From: Fulvivirga lutimaris
GTDB lineage: Bacteria; Bacteroidota; Bacteroidia; Cytophagales; Cyclobacteriaceae
DNA length: 41,216 bases
NCBI RefSeq assembly: GCF_009711525.1
Contig: NZ_SMLV01000415.1
Coordinates: 1 to 41,216, forward strand
Reading direction: 5' to 3'
Position 1 is the stretch's first letter; each line of letters opens with the position of its first letter. The translations under genes were made by a program, and so were the position numbers. The notes beneath the pieces were generated by a model. That model was given only the letters and a program-made list of their open reading frames with translations. It had not been told where the DNA came from and searched no databases. Shown piece after piece: positions 31,408 through 37,128 of the stretch.

Positions 31408-32685
31408 TTAACCCACAAGTATTTCTTTCAAAGCTTCATAATCATTTGCAATGGGAATACTCACCTTGGTCTTGTCTAAATAGGCGGCTAGCCTCTCCGG
31501 AATTTCAACTTCCCCAATTACCTCATTAACGGTATCGAGGAACTTAGCCGGATGGGCAGTTTCCAGAAACACTCCAATGCAATCATGATTTTTCATATAA
31601 CTCTTCAATCCAAGATAACCAACGGCACCATGAGGATCTAAAATGTAGCCTTTCTCATCAAACACTTTTTTCATAGCGGTTTTAGTCTCACCATCAAGAA
31701 AACTATAGCCAGTGATGTCTTTGGTGATGCCGTCCCACGATTGTTGATACAGTTCCGTCATGCGGCCGAAGTTGCTCGGGTTGCCCACGTCCATGGCATT
31801 AGAGATGGTTTGAACAGAAGGCCTTGGTTTGAATTTGTTCTCATTCAGGTATTGCGGGACAATATCATTGGCATTTGAAGAGGCCACAAAACCTTTAATA
31901 CCAAGACCCATAGCTTTGGCTAATAAACCTGCTGTCAAATTTCCATAGTTACCACTAGGTACAGAAAAAACAATTTTCTGATCTGTTGGTAATTGCTTCA
32001 TTGCCCAGAAATAGTAAAATGATTGTGGGATAAGCCTGGCGATATTAATAGAATTAGCAGAGGTTAATTTTATCGATTCGTTTAATTCCTTATCCAGAAA
32101 GGCAGTTTTCACCAACGCCTGGCAATCATCAAAAGTGCCATCAACTTCTAATGCAGTAATATTTTGCCCTAGAGTAGTAAGCTGTTGCTCTTGCAAATGA
32201 CTCACTTTACCTTTTGGGTAAAGAATAACTACGTCAACATTGGGCACACCTAAAAAACCATTGGCCACTGCACTTCCGGTATCACCAGAAGTGGCCACTA
32301 AAACGGTAACTTTTTCATCAGAAAACTGACTTAAGCAGCGCGCAAGGAAACGGGCACCTACATCTTTAAAAGCACAAGTAGGGCCATGAAAAAGCTCCAA
32401 ACTATAAACATTGTCTTCTACCCTTACTACAGGGATGTCAAAATTTAAGGTCTCTGTAACAATCTCTTCCAGGTCGTTTTTTGAAATATCATCACCAACA
32501 AATGGATAGGCTACTTCTAGTCCAATCTCATGAATACTCTTATCATTAAGATTAGCGAAAAACTGCTCTGAGAGTTGTGGAATGTACTCAGGCATAAAAA
32601 GACCATTGTCCTCAGGTAATCCCTTTATCACCGCTTCTTTGAATGAAACAGACTCTACAGATCTTTTGGTACTATAAAATTTCAT
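31408..32685 (-). CDS. thrC: threonine synthase
   Basis: Pyridoxal-phosphate enzyme converting O-phosphohomoserine to threonine. The 425-residue protein starts with MKFYSTKRSVESVSFKEAV, shows the Schiff-base lysine K107 in FHGPTCAFKDVGARF, the phosphate-binding VATSGDTGSAVANGF, the PSGNYGNLTAG loop and the C-terminal FLETAHPAKF, all typical of the class I short form found in Bacteroidota and enterics. It is the last gene of the thr operon; its start overlaps the thrB end by 14 bases. It converges on trkH and the 54-residue gene with 47 bases between, where I see no clear terminator. Confidence 0.97.
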   Translation of the reverse strand: MKFYSTKRSVESVSFKEAVIKGLPEDNGLFMPEYIPQLSEQFFANLNDKSIHEIGLEVAYPFVGDDISKNDLEEIVTETLNFDIPVVRVEDNVYSLELFHGPTCAFKDVGARFLARCLSQFSDEKVTVLVATSGDTGSAVANGFLGVPNVDVVILYPKGKVSHLQEQQLTTLGQNITALEVDGTFDDCQALVKTAFLDKELNESIKLTSANSINIARLIPQSFYYFWAMKQLPTDQKIVFSVPSGNYGNLTAGLLAKAMGLGIKGFVASSNANDIVPQYLNENKFKPRPSVQTISNAMDVGNPSNFGRMTELYQQSWDGITKDITGYSFLDGETKTAMKKVFDEKGYILDPHGAVGYLGLKSYMKNHDCIGVFLETAHPAKFLDTVNEVIGEVEIPERLAAYLDKTKVSIPIANDYEALKEILVG

Positions 32686-33613
32686 ACGATGGTTCTAATG
32701 TTTTACATCCTTTCGGATTGATTTGAGAAATGTGGATATCATGATTGATGTCCAATTGATTATAAATGCCTTTAAAGGCAGCTCCTATTTTATCGGCAAC
32801 TGATTTGTTTTCACAAAGGGCAAAAACTGATGGCCCTGAACCTGATATGCTACAGCCCAAAGCACCATTATTTTTGGCAGCTTCTTTCAGAGTTTCAAAA
32901 CCTGGGATTAGCATCGACCGAATGGGTTCAACAATCAAATCTTCCAATGATCTGCTAATAAGATCAAAGTCACTACTTGCCAGACCCGATACAAAGCCTG
33001 CCAGGTTTCCCCACTGTGCCACCGCCAGCTCCAGGGAAATTTCCTTTTTCAACATTTTCTTTGAGTCGGAAGTTTTCACCTCGATATGTGGGTGCACGGC
33101 TGTTACATAAAGTGATGTTGGGTATGAGAGCTTGATCACATCCAATGGATTATAACTACGCACTAATGTAAAACCACCAAGCAATGAAGGAGCAACATTA
33201 TCTGCATGGGCTTTGCCAGAAGAAGCGGTTTCTCCGGCCATAGCAAAAGGCACCAATTCCAATTTGGTCAATGGCTGGCCAAGTAATTCATTCACACCAT
33301 ACACAGCGCCTGCCGCACTTGAGGCACTTGACCCCAGTCCACTACCAGCTTTTACATTTTTATGGATATTTATGGTCACACCTTTTTTAGACTTCAAATG
33401 ATTTAGCAAGGCTCTTGCAGCCACGCCCGCTACATTGATCTCAGGATCAGTTGGTAAATCAGGATCAGACATAGAAATCTTAATGACACCAGAGTCATTC
33501 AGTGTTAATTCCATATAGTCGCCAATATTGTCGAGGGCTAGTCCTAATACATCATAGCCAGGGCCAACATTGGCCACTGTAGCTGGTGCAAATATTTTTA
33601 TAGACTTATCCAT
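32672..33613 (-). CDS. thrB: homoserine kinase
   Basis: GHMP-family kinase that phosphorylates homoserine for threonine synthase. The 313-residue protein has the N-terminal IFAPATVANVGPGYDVLGLA, the ATP-binding loop KAGSGLGSSASSAAGAV at about 86-102, and the third GHMP motif GCSISGSGPSVFALCE near 260. Length and motifs fit ThrB. It overlaps thrA upstream by eight bases and thrC downstream by 14 bases, so the three genes are tightly coupled for balanced translation. Confidence 0.97.
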   Translation of the reverse strand: MDKSIKIFAPATVANVGPGYDVLGLALDNIGDYMELTLNDSGVIKISMSDPDLPTDPEINVAGVAARALLNHLKSKKGVTINIHKNVKAGSGLGSSASSAAGAVYGVNELLGQPLTKLELVPFAMAGETASSGKAHADNVAPSLLGGFTLVRSYNPLDVIKLSYPTSLYVTAVHPHIEVKTSDSKKMLKKEISLELAVAQWGNLAGFVSGLASSDFDLISRSLEDLIVEPIRSMLIPGFETLKEAAKNNGALGCSISGSGPSVFALCENKSVADKIGAAFKGIYNQLDINHDIHISQINPKGCKTLEPSYEIL

Positions 33614-36047
33614 TAGCGATTCTCATTATATCGGCAAATATTCCCATGGCGGTAACTTCTGCACCAGCACCAGCACCTTTGATCACTAAAGGCTGCTCTG
33701 GGTAGCGTTTGGTAGTAAAGAGCACAATATTGTCTTTACCCTCCAGATTGTAGAATGGATGATCCTGGCTTACGAACTTAAGACCTCCTTCAGCTTTTCC
33801 TTTGTTGAAAGAAGCCACGTATTTTATCTTTTTATTGTCATCAGAGGCCTTTTTATATAGCTGCTGGAACTCCGCCTCATGAGCTTCAAGAGAAGCTAAA
33901 AATTTATCAACAGAAGGTGCGTCCATACATTCTTTAGGTATAAAAGGCACTCCTTTAATATCACTTAATTCCATTTCTAAACCAGATTCTCGTATCAAGA
34001 TGAGAATTTTTCGCATTACATCCACACCGCTTAGGTCTATTCTAGGATCAGGTTCAGTGAAGCCCTGTTTCATAGCTTCTTTTACTACATCTACAAAGCG
34101 ACTTTTATCATTGAAATTGTTGAAAATAAAATTCAAACTACCTGAAAGTACAGCTTCAATTTTATAAATCTCATCACCACTTTTGATCAAATCGTTTAGG
34201 GTGTTGATAACAGGTAGACCTGCCCCTACATTAGTCTCAAATAAGAACTTGGTTCTATAGCGGAGTGCTGTTTGCTTAAGCTCCTTATACTTATCAATAC
34301 TCTGGGTACATGCTATTTTGTTTGGAGTTACTACCGCAATGCTTTCTTCCAAAAGCTGGTTGTAAATTGTAGCGACATCTTCATTAGCTGTATTGTCTAT
34401 GAAAATGCTATTTCTCAGGTTCAGGTCTATGGCCTGTTGAATGAAGCCTTTCAGGGTCATTTTTTCTCCACTTTCAAGAAGCGAGTCTTTCCAGTTTTTA
34501 AGACTAATACCATCTTCATCAAATAGCATCTTTTTAGAGTTGGCTAGAGCCACGATCTTAACATCTATATGATGATGCTTCAATAAATATGATTTTTGCT
34601 TATTAATTTGCTCCACCAAAGTGCCGCCTACATTGCCAATACCAATCATAAAAAGGTTGATGCGCTTTCGATCTGATAAGAAGAAGCTTTCATGTAAACT
34701 GTTGAGTGCCTTTCTTACTTCATTGTTTTGAATGACTACAGAAATATTCTTCTCAGAAGAACCCTGAGCGATGGCTTTTATATTAATGCCATTCTGACTC
34801 AATGTGCTGAACATGTTCCCACTTACACCCACTTGTTCTTTCATTTTGGATCCTACAAGGGCAACAATCGACAGGTTTTTCTCTATTTCTAAAGCATCAA
34901 TCTTATGACGAGATAGTTCAAATTCGAATTCTTCTTCAACAGCTTCTTTGGCTATTTCACAATCATGTTCATCAATTCCTACACAAATGGAGTGTTCAGA
35001 TGATGCCTGTGTAATCAATATGATATTTACTTTGGCACTGGACAATGCCTTGAAAAGACGGTGTGAAAAGTTAGGAATACCAACCATACCACTGCCTGAT
35101 AGGTTAACTAAAGCGATATTTTGGATGCATGAAAGCCCTTTAATAATGTTGCCATTCCCGTTGCCTTTATTAGAAATTACAGTGCCGTAATCATCAGGTT
35201 TAAAAGTGTTCTTGATATGAATAGGTATATTGGCCTCCAGTACAGGTTGAATGGTTGGTGGATAGATCACCTTGGCTCCGAAATGGGAGAGCTCCATCGC
35301 CTCTTCATAACTTATTTCTTTAATGGCATAAGCTCTACTTACCAATCGAGGATCGGCTGTCATCATGCCACTGACATCTGTCCAGATTTCTAGTTCTTTA
35401 CTTTTTAAAATAGAGGCCAAAATGGCCGCGGTATAGTCAGATCCACCTCTGCCAAGCGTTGTTGTTTCATCATTTTTATTAGAGGCCACAAAACCTGGAC
35501 ATACCCAGCAGTTAGACTGATCTTTAAAATAGGTCTTAACCTCTTCAGAAGTCGTCTGAAAGTCTACATTGGCTCGGCCATAATTGCTGTCTGTCTTAAT
35601 AAACTGTTTGGCATCTGCCCAGCTGCTCTTGAGCCCTGAGTCATTGAAATAATCATTGATAATCAATGAAGATAATGTTTCACCGAAACTCAAGATTCTG
35701 TCCTGAGTTTTGAGGCTTAATTCTCTGATAAGGTAAACACCTCTAAAAATATCTTCCAAATCGTTTAATAGCATTTTTACCTTGCTTAGGGTTTTGCCCT
35801 GTCCTTTTACAGAAATAAGCTCCTGCACTGTTTTTATGTGCCTTGACTCTATCTGGTTAAGTTGCTTTAGGTATTGATCATCTCCTGAGGCGGCAAGTTC
35901 ACTACATTCAATTAATAGATTGGTAATGCCGCCAAACGCAGAAACCACGGCAACTAAAGGTTGCTGTTTATTGACAATGATGTTTTTAACTAATGATATA
36001 TTTTTTGCTGAGGCTACAGATGTACCTCCAAATTTCACAACAAGCAT
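33606..36047 (-). CDS. thrA: bifunctional aspartokinase / homoserine dehydrogenase
   Basis: Two enzymes of the aspartate pathway in one 813-residue chain. The aspartokinase part starts MLVVKFGGTSVASAKNI and includes GRGGSDYTAAILASILK near 195 and WTDVSGMMTADPRLV near 217. Two ACT regulatory modules lie at about 305-460 (VNLSGSGMVGIPNF, VALVGSKMKEQVGVSG). The homoserine dehydrogenase part begins with the NAD-binding FMIGIGNVGGTL near 465 and contains TPNKIACT, ETNVGAGLPVINTLNDL and GFTEPDPRIDLSGVDV. This is the ThrA/MetL type fusion as in E. coli. It is the first gene of the operon, with a Thr-rich leader peptide 69 bases upstream. Threonine feedback through the ACT modules is expected but not shown by the sequence. 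Confidence 0.97.
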   Translation of the reverse strand: MLVVKFGGTSVASAKNISLVKNIIVNKQQPLVAVVSAFGGITNLLIECSELAASGDDQYLKQLNQIESRHIKTVQELISVKGQGKTLSKVKMLLNDLEDIFRGVYLIRELSLKTQDRILSFGETLSSLIINDYFNDSGLKSSWADAKQFIKTDSNYGRANVDFQTTSEEVKTYFKDQSNCWVCPGFVASNKNDETTTLGRGGSDYTAAILASILKSKELEIWTDVSGMMTADPRLVSRAYAIKEISYEEAMELSHFGAKVIYPPTIQPVLEANIPIHIKNTFKPDDYGTVISNKGNGNGNIIKGLSCIQNIALVNLSGSGMVGIPNFSHRLFKALSSAKVNIILITQASSEHSICVGIDEHDCEIAKEAVEEEFEFELSRHKIDALEIEKNLSIVALVGSKMKEQVGVSGNMFSTLSQNGINIKAIAQGSSEKNISVVIQNNEVRKALNSLHESFFLSDRKRINLFMIGIGNVGGTLVEQINKQKSYLLKHHHIDVKIVALANSKKMLFDEDGISLKNWKDSLLESGEKMTLKGFIQQAIDLNLRNSIFIDNTANEDVATIYNQLLEESIAVVTPNKIACTQSIDKYKELKQTALRYRTKFLFETNVGAGLPVINTLNDLIKSGDEIYKIEAVLSGSLNFIFNNFNDKSRFVDVVKEAMKQGFTEPDPRIDLSGVDVMRKILILIRESGLEMELSDIKGVPFIPKECMDAPSVDKFLASLEAHEAEFQQLYKKASDDNKKIKYVASFNKGKAEGGLKFVSQDHPFYNLEGKDNIVLFTTKRYPEQPLVIKGAGAGAEVTAMGIFADIMRIANG

Positions 36048-36116
36048 GGTTGAGATTTTTAAAGAATAAAATTTTATTTAGAAAAGTCGGCTAGTGCCTA
36101 TGGCGATATGTAAATA

Positions 36117-36218
36117 TTAACCCCGCGAAGGGGTTGTGATTGTTGTAATAATAGCAGCTATCACTACTGTTGTTGCAGTAGAAATAGTAGTGATGATATG
36201 GTTTGAAATGTTATTCAC
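36117..36218 (-). CDS. thrL: thr operon leader peptide (Thr/Ile-rich, 33 residues)
   Basis: On the minus strand, a GTG at 36218 (or the TTG at 36221) opens a 33-codon frame ending in TAA at 36117-36119. The product is MNNISNHIITTISTATTVVI, then AAIITTITTPSRG: nine Thr and eight Ile of 33 residues. This composition, exactly the end products of the threonine and isoleucine pathway, is that of ThrL of E. coli and is not expected by chance in an AT-rich spacer. The stop lies 69 bases before thrA. The symbol is assigned by analogy. An upstream in-frame TAA limits the start to these two codons. Confidence 0.8.
   Translation of the reverse strand: MNNISNHIITTISTATTVVIAAIITTITTPSRG
36119..36194 (-). 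promoter_or_regulatory. candidate attenuator hairpins of the thr leader
   Basis: Within the leader-peptide region two stems share bases. Arms 36160-36168 and 36186-36194 (ATCACTACT/AGTAGTGAT) make a nine-pair stem; arms 36164-36169 and 36176-36181 (CTACTG/CAGTAG) make an alternative six-pair stem. They cannot form together. Closer to thrA, arms 36119-36124 and 36130-36135 (AACCCC/GGGGTT) form a GC-rich six-pair hairpin over the last leader codons, followed by AATATTTA in the direction of transcription. This is the layout of a ribosome-dependent attenuator, but the tail is poor in U, so the terminator assignment is weak. Confidence 0.5.
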
Positions 36219-36219
36219 C

Positions 36220-36428
36220 AATGTGCTTTATTACGCTTGGAGAGATGAAACTAGTTTTTTATTTCTTCTTGTCAAAATATCAGTTGCTGTTGTAATGTCT
36301 CATTTTCAAGCTTTGGGCATAAAAGTTCTGTCAAAATAGGCCGCTATTCTATTTTAAATCGTATGCGAAGATTTTTTGCCGAATGGTAAGATTTATTCTT
36401 TTTGAGAGCCTTACCAATACGGCTTTCT
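36220..36428. other. spacer upstream of the thr leader, probably holding its promoter
   Basis: About 210 bases without a convincing gene. On the minus strand the decamer TATTTTGACA occurs twice (around 36270-36279 and 36328-36337), close to but not matching TAnnTTTG. Near the right end TGGTAAG at 36384-36390 and CTTACCA at 36410-36416 form a seven-pair inverted repeat with a 19-base loop and no T tract. The thr promoter must lie in this region, but I cannot place it. Confidence 0.4.
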
Positions 36429-36430
36429 AA

Positions 36431-36474
36431 GATTCCGGCCTGTCTGCCGACAAAGGCAGGCTCAAGGCCGGAAT
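36431..36474. repeat. palindromic repeat A, copy 1 (long form)
   Basis: Outer arms ATTCCGGCC at 36432-36440 and GGCCGGAAT at 36466-36474 form a nine-pair stem; inside it sits a second hairpin CTGCC at 36444-36448 with GGCAG at 36455-36459. The sequence ends in GGAATGACA. Compared with copy 2 at 36854 it carries an additional 22 bases that form the inner hairpin. It lies 61 bases in front of the GIY-YIG gene. Confidence 0.85.
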
Positions 36475-36529
36475 GACAACAATACCTAGGATAATGTCAT
36501 TGCGGACCTGATTCGCAATCTTTAACTTC
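36461..36529 (+). repeat. 69-bp direct repeat, copy 1
   Basis: This 69-base block recurs at 36861-36929 with only three mismatches (two at 36486-36487, one at 36513), exactly 400 bases away. It includes the right half of palindrome A and all of palindrome B (ATTGCG at 36499-36504, CGCAAT at 36514-36519) and ends six bases before the GIY-YIG start codon. Confidence 0.9.
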
Positions 36530-36534
36530 AAGGT

Positions 36535-36831
36535 GTGAGAGACCACCAATACTTCGTCTACATCCTATCCAATTTCACCAACACTACTGTCTATATTGGT
36601 GTGACTAATGACCTTGAAACTCGAGTGCGTCAACACAAAGACAAGTTGGTAAAAGGGTTTACTCAAAAGTATAATGTCGATAAGCTTGTCTACTTTGAAG
36701 AACATAATGATATCAGCAGGGCAATTGCAAGGGAAAAACAATTGAAGAATTGGCAGCGAGCTTGGAAAGATGAGTTAATTGAAGAGGATAATCCAAATTG
36801 GATCGATCTGAGCCAAGGGTGGTATGATTGA
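36535..36831 (+). CDS. GIY-YIG domain endonuclease, associated with palindromic repeats
   Basis: A 98-residue single-domain protein with the GIY-YIG fold. The two tyrosine strands are seen as YFVYI (6-10) and VYIGVTN (19-25); the catalytic arginine is probably R30 in LETRVRQH, and the metal-binding glutamate E67 in AIAREKQLKNW. It belongs to the small UPF0213/UvrC-N-like group, and the length is usual. It starts with GTG at 36535. The gene is embedded between copies of palindromic repeats, and the conserved repeat unit runs straight into its 5' end. It is probably the protein component of a small mobile or repeat-spreading element rather than a housekeeping gene. The role in repair or transposition is unproven. 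Confidence 0.88.
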   Translation: MRDHQYFVYILSNFTNTTVYIGVTNDLETRVRQHKDKLVKGFTQKYNVDKLVYFEEHNDISRAIAREKQLKNWQRAWKDELIEEDNPNWIDLSQGWYD

Positions 36832-36853
36832 TGATTTGCCTGAACGCTGTAAG

Positions 36854-36874
36854 ATTCCGGCTCAAGGCCGGAAT
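36854..36874. repeat. palindromic repeat A, copy 2 (short form)
   Basis: Arms ATTCCGGC at 36854-36861 and GCCGGAAT at 36867-36874 form a perfect eight-pair stem with the loop TCAAG; ATGACA follows. It begins 22 bases behind the GIY-YIG stop. Confidence 0.85.
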
Positions 36875-36929
36875 GACAACAATACTCAGGATAATGTCAT
36901 TGCGGACCTGATCCGCAATCTTTAACTTC
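36861..36929 (+). repeat. 69-bp direct repeat, copy 2
   Basis: Second copy of the block at 36461-36529, with three mismatches. Here palindrome B is longer and perfect: ATTGCGGA at 36899-36906 pairs with TCCGCAAT at 36912-36919 around the loop CCTGA. It is followed at once by the decayed GIY-YIG fragment. Confidence 0.9.
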
Positions 36930-36934
36930 TGAAG

Positions 36935-37017
36935 TTGACATACTACCAATGCTTCATCAATATGGTGTTCAATTTCACCAATGCAATGGATAATTTTGGT
37001 GTGACGAATAGAACAAG
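36935..37017 (+). pseudogene. 5' remnant of a second GIY-YIG gene
   Basis: This segment lines up without gaps, at an offset of exactly 400 bases, with the start of the intact GIY-YIG gene; by hand count 53 of the first 75 bases agree. The TTG at 36935 matches the GTG start at 36535. The translated piece, YYQCFINMVFNFTN then NFGVTN, mirrors HQYFVYILSNFTN then YIGVTN, but the motif tyrosines are changed to asparagine (VYI to INM, YIG to NFG). After about 27 codons homology stops and a third palindrome A copy follows. It is an inactive relic, not a gene. Confidence 0.75.
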
Positions 37018-37018
37018 A

Positions 37019-37045
37019 AGATTCCTGCTTAAGGCCGGAATGACA
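37019..37045. repeat. palindromic repeat A, copy 3 (degenerate)
   Basis: ATTCC at 37021-37025 and GGAAT at 37037-37041, with GC/GC pairs inside and a T/C mismatch, keep the outline of repeat A and the same GGAATGACA end. It abuts the GIY-YIG remnant. From here to 37128 I see only an AT-rich spacer before the M61 gene. Confidence 0.65.
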
Positions 37046-37128
37046 AATACTCAAGACGAACTCTTTAGGTTCATTCACCAGACAAATTTTATATTTATGG
37101 TATATTCGTTTTTTAAACATACGATTTC

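Follow-up and report, generated by a model that had tools for sequence, protein, structure and literature searches.

The thr operon of Fulvivirga lutimaris is preceded by a leader that is a different device from the classic attenuator. A short Thr/Ile-rich frame, conserved across the Bacteroidota, runs into a hairpin at its stop codon, a CATAT box follows the hairpin at a nearly constant distance, and an intrinsic terminator is absent between leader and thrA in the window (the whole stretch analysed, 41,216 nucleotides of contig NZ_SMLV01000415.1). Judged from its sequence, the leader would be a variant form of ribosome-mediated attenuation, and we propose a mechanism for it: a non-classical Thr/Ile-sensing leader that may act through a hairpin-stabilized pause, with termination probably assisted by Rho. 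We give this reading about the same chance of being right as of being wrong.

A conserved leader frame before thrA

The operon, in the order thrABC, its leader and its promoter occupy the following positions:

31408..32685, minus strand: thrC, threonine synthase (TIGR00260, 299 bits)
32672..33613, minus strand: thrB, homoserine kinase (TIGR00191, 222 bits)
33606..36047, minus strand: thrA, bifunctional aspartate kinase/homoserine dehydrogenase I (NF006959, 1058 bits)
36117..36218, minus strand: leader peptide ORF, GTG start at 36218, 33 codons and a TAA ending at 36117
36132..36152, minus strand: terminal sensor run ATT ATT ACA ACA ATC ACA ACC (I I T T I T T), at the same position in relatives
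36246..36276, minus strand: Bacteroidota-type promoter from motif scoring, with -33 TTTG (36276-36273), a 19-nt spacer and -7 TAGTTTCA (36253-36246)

The initial annotation had described, from the sequence alone, a 33-codon frame before thrA with nine Thr and eight Ile codons, and this frame is indeed present on the minus strand, 69 nt from thrA. The encoded peptide, VNNISNHIITTISTATTVVIAAIITTITTPSRG*, carries these residues (Thr at 9/33 and Ile at 8/33 codons) in the blocks ITT, TATT and IITTITT. A comparable Thr/Ile stretch was found in 0 of 3000 random sequences, each read in six frames and generated by a Markov-1 model matched to the intergenic region in length and dinucleotide make-up. 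As far as sequence can tell, conservation is a stronger argument for a real leader than this random-sequence test.

The comparison upstream of thrA in relatives, which the same annotation had suggested, returned a frame rich in Thr and Ile that runs up to the same hairpin in all 11 Fulvivirga thrA loci with intact upstream DNA (L001-L011), most of which also conserve a GTG start ~31 codons before the stop. In a phylum sample of 80 further named thrA loci across Bacteroidota, the leader recurs, among others, in Flavobacteriaceae, Chitinophagaceae and a genome labelled Balneolaceae. Not every genome has it: in many of the same family no thr leader is recognizable, and two of that family (L018 and L023) carry classic thr attenuators with a GC hairpin and a T-run. 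Place, frame and composition are thus conserved across the phylum, which bears out the proposal of a threonine operon leader peptide.

A covariance model (R1) was built from 23 thr leaders, with no Fulvivirga sequence included. Its top match in the window's genome covers the end of the leader and the box downstream:

36086..36163, minus strand: R1 match, 38.2 bits, E 0.0036 (R1 E-values are rough)

The runner-up in the same 4.86-Mb assembly reached 19.8 bits. R1 matched 39 of 296 Bacteroidota genomes, ten of which (family f41) belong to a different class within the phylum. Every one of the 30 matches that were fetched lies directly before thrA. Because R1 carries the Thr run, it gave no match at his leaders.

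The promoter lies ~28 nt upstream of the leader GTG, in a layout common to most Fulvivirga relatives (for example, TTTG-N19-TAGCTTCG in L002). Across 80 leaders, a promoter score of at least 8 occurs upstream of the leader in 34% of cases versus 5% of shuffles, and in 1% of the sequences that separate the leader from thrA. An additional promoter in that interval was accordingly rejected, its frequency (1% of loci) being below that of the shuffles. Since the promoter sits upstream of the leader frame, the thrA transcript very likely includes it. A Thr/Ile-rich ORF upstream of a thr operon, the mark of ribosome-mediated attenuation, is found here, and the position of the promoter points to a shared transcript. 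The window's genome has, at G000:C429:29741-32125, another gene resembling aspartate kinase/homoserine dehydrogenase, with 37% identity to thrA.

The stop-codon hairpin and the CATAT box

Two elements recur at the end of the leader frame, and two further structures are less certain:

36119..36135, minus strand: hairpin 1, AACCCC-ttcgc-GGGGTT, from fold, compensatory changes and arm swaps
36102..36110, minus strand: CATAT box, CATATCGCC, beginning 8 nt past hairpin 1
36089..36104, minus strand: two overlapping short hairpins, GCC-ata-GGC and GGC-acta-GCC, a weak, clade-specific second element
36145..36234, minus strand: possible long-range stem P0, uncertain, pairing 5' UTR GTAATAAAGC (36234-36225) with run region GCTATTATTAC (36155-36145)

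In the window, the 5' arm of hairpin 1 is formed by the last Thr codons, the final base of the 3' arm is also the first of the stop codon, and no U-tract follows. We collected 58 distinct thr leaders, selected by codon run and stop only, with stem-loops of 4-9 bp; the stop codon falls in the loop in 32 of them, in the 3' arm in 6 and 0-3 nt past the hairpin in 20. Because the hairpin was sought near the stop, covariation rather than position counts as evidence. In an 80-row alignment (A4), hairpin 1 contains 28 double-change cells, versus 16.0 ± 2.8 after shuffling, and has a covariation score of 0.124, versus 0.070 ± 0.011 after shuffling and far lower values with the partner slid; as kinship among sequences inflates such counts, they are to be read as support and not as a p-value. 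When the arms were exchanged between species, pairing became weaker (natural versus swapped, z -5.0).

An exact CATAT within 24 nt past the hairpin is present in 32 of the 58 leaders, which had been picked without reference to the box, versus 3.8 expected. CATAT begins 9.2 ± 2.2 nt past the end of the hairpin, and the variants CATAC and TATAT occur in Fulvivirga. The short hairpins at the box covary within Fulvivirga (GGC/GCC, GGGGC/GCUCC, GGGAC/GUCCC), are weak by energy and are not conserved in Flavobacterium; a universal second hairpin past the box was therefore rejected, being supported only in Fulvivirga, the Balneola group and his leaders. For P0, natural pairing exceeds swapped pairing in Fulvivirga (p 0.033) and in the Balneola group (p 0.0005), and is not significant in the other groups tested by swapping.

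The same arrangement precedes hisG. Among 118 Cytophagales hisG loci, 16 have a His-rich leader with a hairpin of at least 5 bp at the stop, and CATAT occurs in 10 of these 16 versus 0.4 expected, although several of these leaders are closely related and represent fewer independent cases than counted. Nine of the ten boxes lie 7-9 nt past the stem. The stems differ in sequence (CATTCCTC/GAGGAATG, TGGCTCTCT/AGAGAGCCA) and come from several genera. The device is thus specific neither for Thr codons nor for thrA, and this favors an action on the transcription complex over one on the thrA start. A pairing of CATAT with the thrA start (AUAUG), seen in L003, L050 and L072, was discarded: in Flavobacterium an identical box goes with AAATG, and hisG, too, is preceded by the box. 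In four his leaders (L245, L262, L289 and L291), CATAT continues as CATATYGNCCCC, with GGGG soon after, which can also pair with sequence further on, giving two mutually exclusive short hairpins with no U-tract.

Absence of an intrinsic terminator and the proposed mechanism

One scan rule for intrinsic terminators was applied throughout. It found none between leader and thrA in the window and two among 76 thr leaders between hairpin 1 and thrA (L005 and L006), so that 74 of these type II leaders, the window included, have none; in genomes of the same group, this rule returned a terminator before trpE in 28 of 30 cases and before hisG in 19 of 30. The assertion that terminator style differs in this organism is thus too simple, as the trp and his leaders of its genome are standard attenuators made of a GC hairpin and a T-run. 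The eight nucleotides past hairpin 1 contain 3.5 T, compared with 6.9 past the his and trp terminators, and at least six T were counted there in 1 of 58 leaders. With such a T content, hairpin 1 was rejected as a canonical terminator.

A 2:3 antiterminator formed by the 3' arm of hairpin 1 and the box looked promising by eye in Chitinophagaceae and Flavobacterium and was also rejected: natural pairs are weaker than swapped ones (z +4.4, in a test whose swaps mix clades). The Rfam Thr_leader family (RF00506) has no match in the window's genome, and Rfam 15 gave no family match at gathering score at the locus or in relatives. The initial annotation had stated that the same logic as in E. coli ThrL operates here. 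Part of this stands: there is a leader peptide, and, with its place, frame and composition conserved, sensing of Thr/Ile-tRNA charging by the translating ribosome is the natural reading. The identity of the logic is not supported, for lack of a terminator, a supported antiterminator or an RF00506 match.

Other leaders were noted during this search. The window's genome (L185, G000:C112) has two complete trp attenuators in tandem, their leaders lying ~274 and ~145 nt upstream of the trpE match, each a WWW leader followed by its own GC hairpin and T-run; the doubled attenuator is also present in L175, L176, L178, L179, L182 and L190. In L155, L167, L169 and other genomes of the same family, ilvD is preceded by a leader rich in Ile and Val with an ordinary terminator; none is evident in the window's genome.

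We propose that the leader works as follows. A ribosome on the leader would either read through hairpin 1 or stop within it. Since the 5' arm consists of the last Thr codons, folding of hairpin 1 would depend on the position of the ribosome, a dependence that follows from the geometry of the sequence. Slow decoding of the last Thr/Ile codons, or a ribosome at the stop codon, would hold the hairpin open, and quick completion of the leader followed by release would let it fold. CATAT begins 9 ± 2 nt past the hairpin, where the active site of the polymerase would be as the hairpin emerges; hairpin and box thus most likely form a pause, with CATAT as the putative pause site of RNA polymerase and hairpin 1 as the pause hairpin. 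When threonine is plentiful, the leader would be finished, the RNA up to thrA (~70 nt here) would be free of ribosomes, and the paused polymerase would be stopped, most likely with Rho, since there is no U-tract terminator. When charged tRNA-Thr or tRNA-Ile is low, the slowed ribosome would keep hairpin 1 open and transcription would proceed.

Several observations qualify this model. The E. coli pause consensus (G-10 Y-1 G+1) is not matched at CATAT. In 76 downstream regions, C makes up 17.4% and G 12.7% of bases, an excess of C so small that no clear rut site stands out. If a ribosome stalls early in a long run, it would be too far upstream to keep hairpin 1 from folding; the model therefore leaves control under severe starvation unexplained.

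The alternative closest to the pause model holds that hairpin 1, with the A/U-rich stretch up to CATAT, is itself the terminator and that a ribosome on the last Thr codons blocks its folding. The sole difference is that hairpin 1 would release the polymerase unaided. The logic resembles that of the pyrBI leader, in which translation through a hairpin prevents termination, and it agrees with sensor codons that form the 5' arm, with a stop in or just past the hairpin and with a box located where release would occur. The low T content past the hairpin, in genomes whose his and trp leaders use long T-runs, argues against it; we regard such unaided release as possible, though rather improbable.

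Attenuation of the classic E. coli type, with a terminator 3:4, an antiterminator 2:3 and the stop-codon hairpin as 1:2, would account for the stop codon, since the E. coli trp leader likewise has its stop codon inside hairpin 1:2. It is also favored by L018 and L023, with their classic thr attenuators in the same family, and by the two leaders that pass the terminator scan, which L009 resembles: L005, L006 and L009 share a plausible short terminator (GGGGC..GCUCC followed by AUUUUUC) that fits a classic reading for these three. The scan result for the other 74 leaders, the weak natural pairing of 3' arm and box, and the missing RF00506 match make it unlikely for the leader at large.

Control through translation or RNA stability, in which leader structure would govern how accessible the thrA start is or how the RNA decays, is about as doubtful. 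The lack of a terminator is compatible with it, as are the minimum-free-energy fold of the window, in which some of the box region is paired with the thrA start, and the ability of the Flavobacterium box to pair with a downstream segment. However, the distance from leader to thrA varies (~65-190 nt) with no structure conserved around the start codon, the box is also found before a different gene, hisG, and pairing of the box with downstream sequence is no better than in swapped pairs (z -1.2). A chance low-complexity frame without function, conceivable insofar as Thr/Ile codons are A/T-rich and readily found in such DNA, is practically refuted by the random-sequence result and by the phylum-wide conservation of place, hairpin and box.

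Returning to the hairpin-stabilized pause, we are evenly divided on a wider proposal: that Bacteroidota may possess an ancient second type of attenuator, serving thr in much of the phylum and his in several Cytophagales, built from a stop-codon hairpin and a polymerase signal, CATAT, at fixed distance, and operating with no switching between terminator and antiterminator.

Relation to known leaders

Textbook amino-acid attenuation is defined by a terminator and an antiterminator, and the conserved thr leader has neither. With E. coli ThrL and RF00506 it shares a short Thr/Ile-rich ORF directly before thrA of thrABC; it differs in lacking a U-tract terminator and a supported antiterminator, and in an ORF that runs into a stop-bearing hairpin. 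The trp, his and ilv attenuators of Cytophagales likewise have a leader peptide, under a single promoter, in which the regulated amino acid occurs in runs, but they end in GC hairpins with T-run terminators, and trp has a clear 2:3 pair (GAACAGCG/CGCUGUUC). As these classic attenuators precede other operons of the same genomes, both kinds can be compared within one organism.

A further parallel is with the pause hairpins of E. coli hisL and trpL, which lie around the end of the leader ORF, ~10 nt before a polymerase pause (PMC9291695). At the his pause, the hairpin spans -30 to -11 from the pause, a spacing close to that between hairpin and box in the thr leaders (PMC9291695). In hisL and trpL, however, the pause sequence is another and an intrinsic terminator comes after. 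Actinobacterial cys leaders without terminators and the LEU element also combine a leader peptide before a biosynthetic gene with missing attenuator parts, and Rho was proposed for cys (PMC1262725); they belong to another phylum and to other genes, and no stop-codon hairpin or CATAT box was described for them (PMC1262725).

Within Bacteroidota, 'strong clues' of leader-peptide attenuation were reported for Flavobacterium psychrophilum (PMC9723704), and sORFs were reported in 5' UTRs of Bacteroides (PMC7366714), so that attenuating leader peptides had already been considered possible in amino-acid operons or 5' UTRs of the phylum; the main texts of both papers do not describe the anatomy of the thr leader. 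In the open-access literature, to which the search was confined (subscription papers and supplements fell outside it), we found no description of a stop-codon hairpin with CATAT or of terminator-less Bacteroidota thr leaders, and we provisionally consider this anatomy novel. If correct, the proposal would offer a defined system in which to study Rho, pausing and the coupling of transcription and translation, all little known in this phylum, and a search model (hairpin plus CATAT) for leaders overlooked by terminator-based screens.

A separate feature lies beyond the promoter, at 36438-37046 of the window: a 172-nt direct repeat, 77% identical at a spacing of 400, that carries the motif AAGATTCCGGCTCAAGGCCGGAATGACAA three times. 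The repeat unit extends into the ORF of a small GIY-YIG nuclease (36535-36831, PF01541, E 3e-18), and its 22-nt core has five near-exact copies in the genome.
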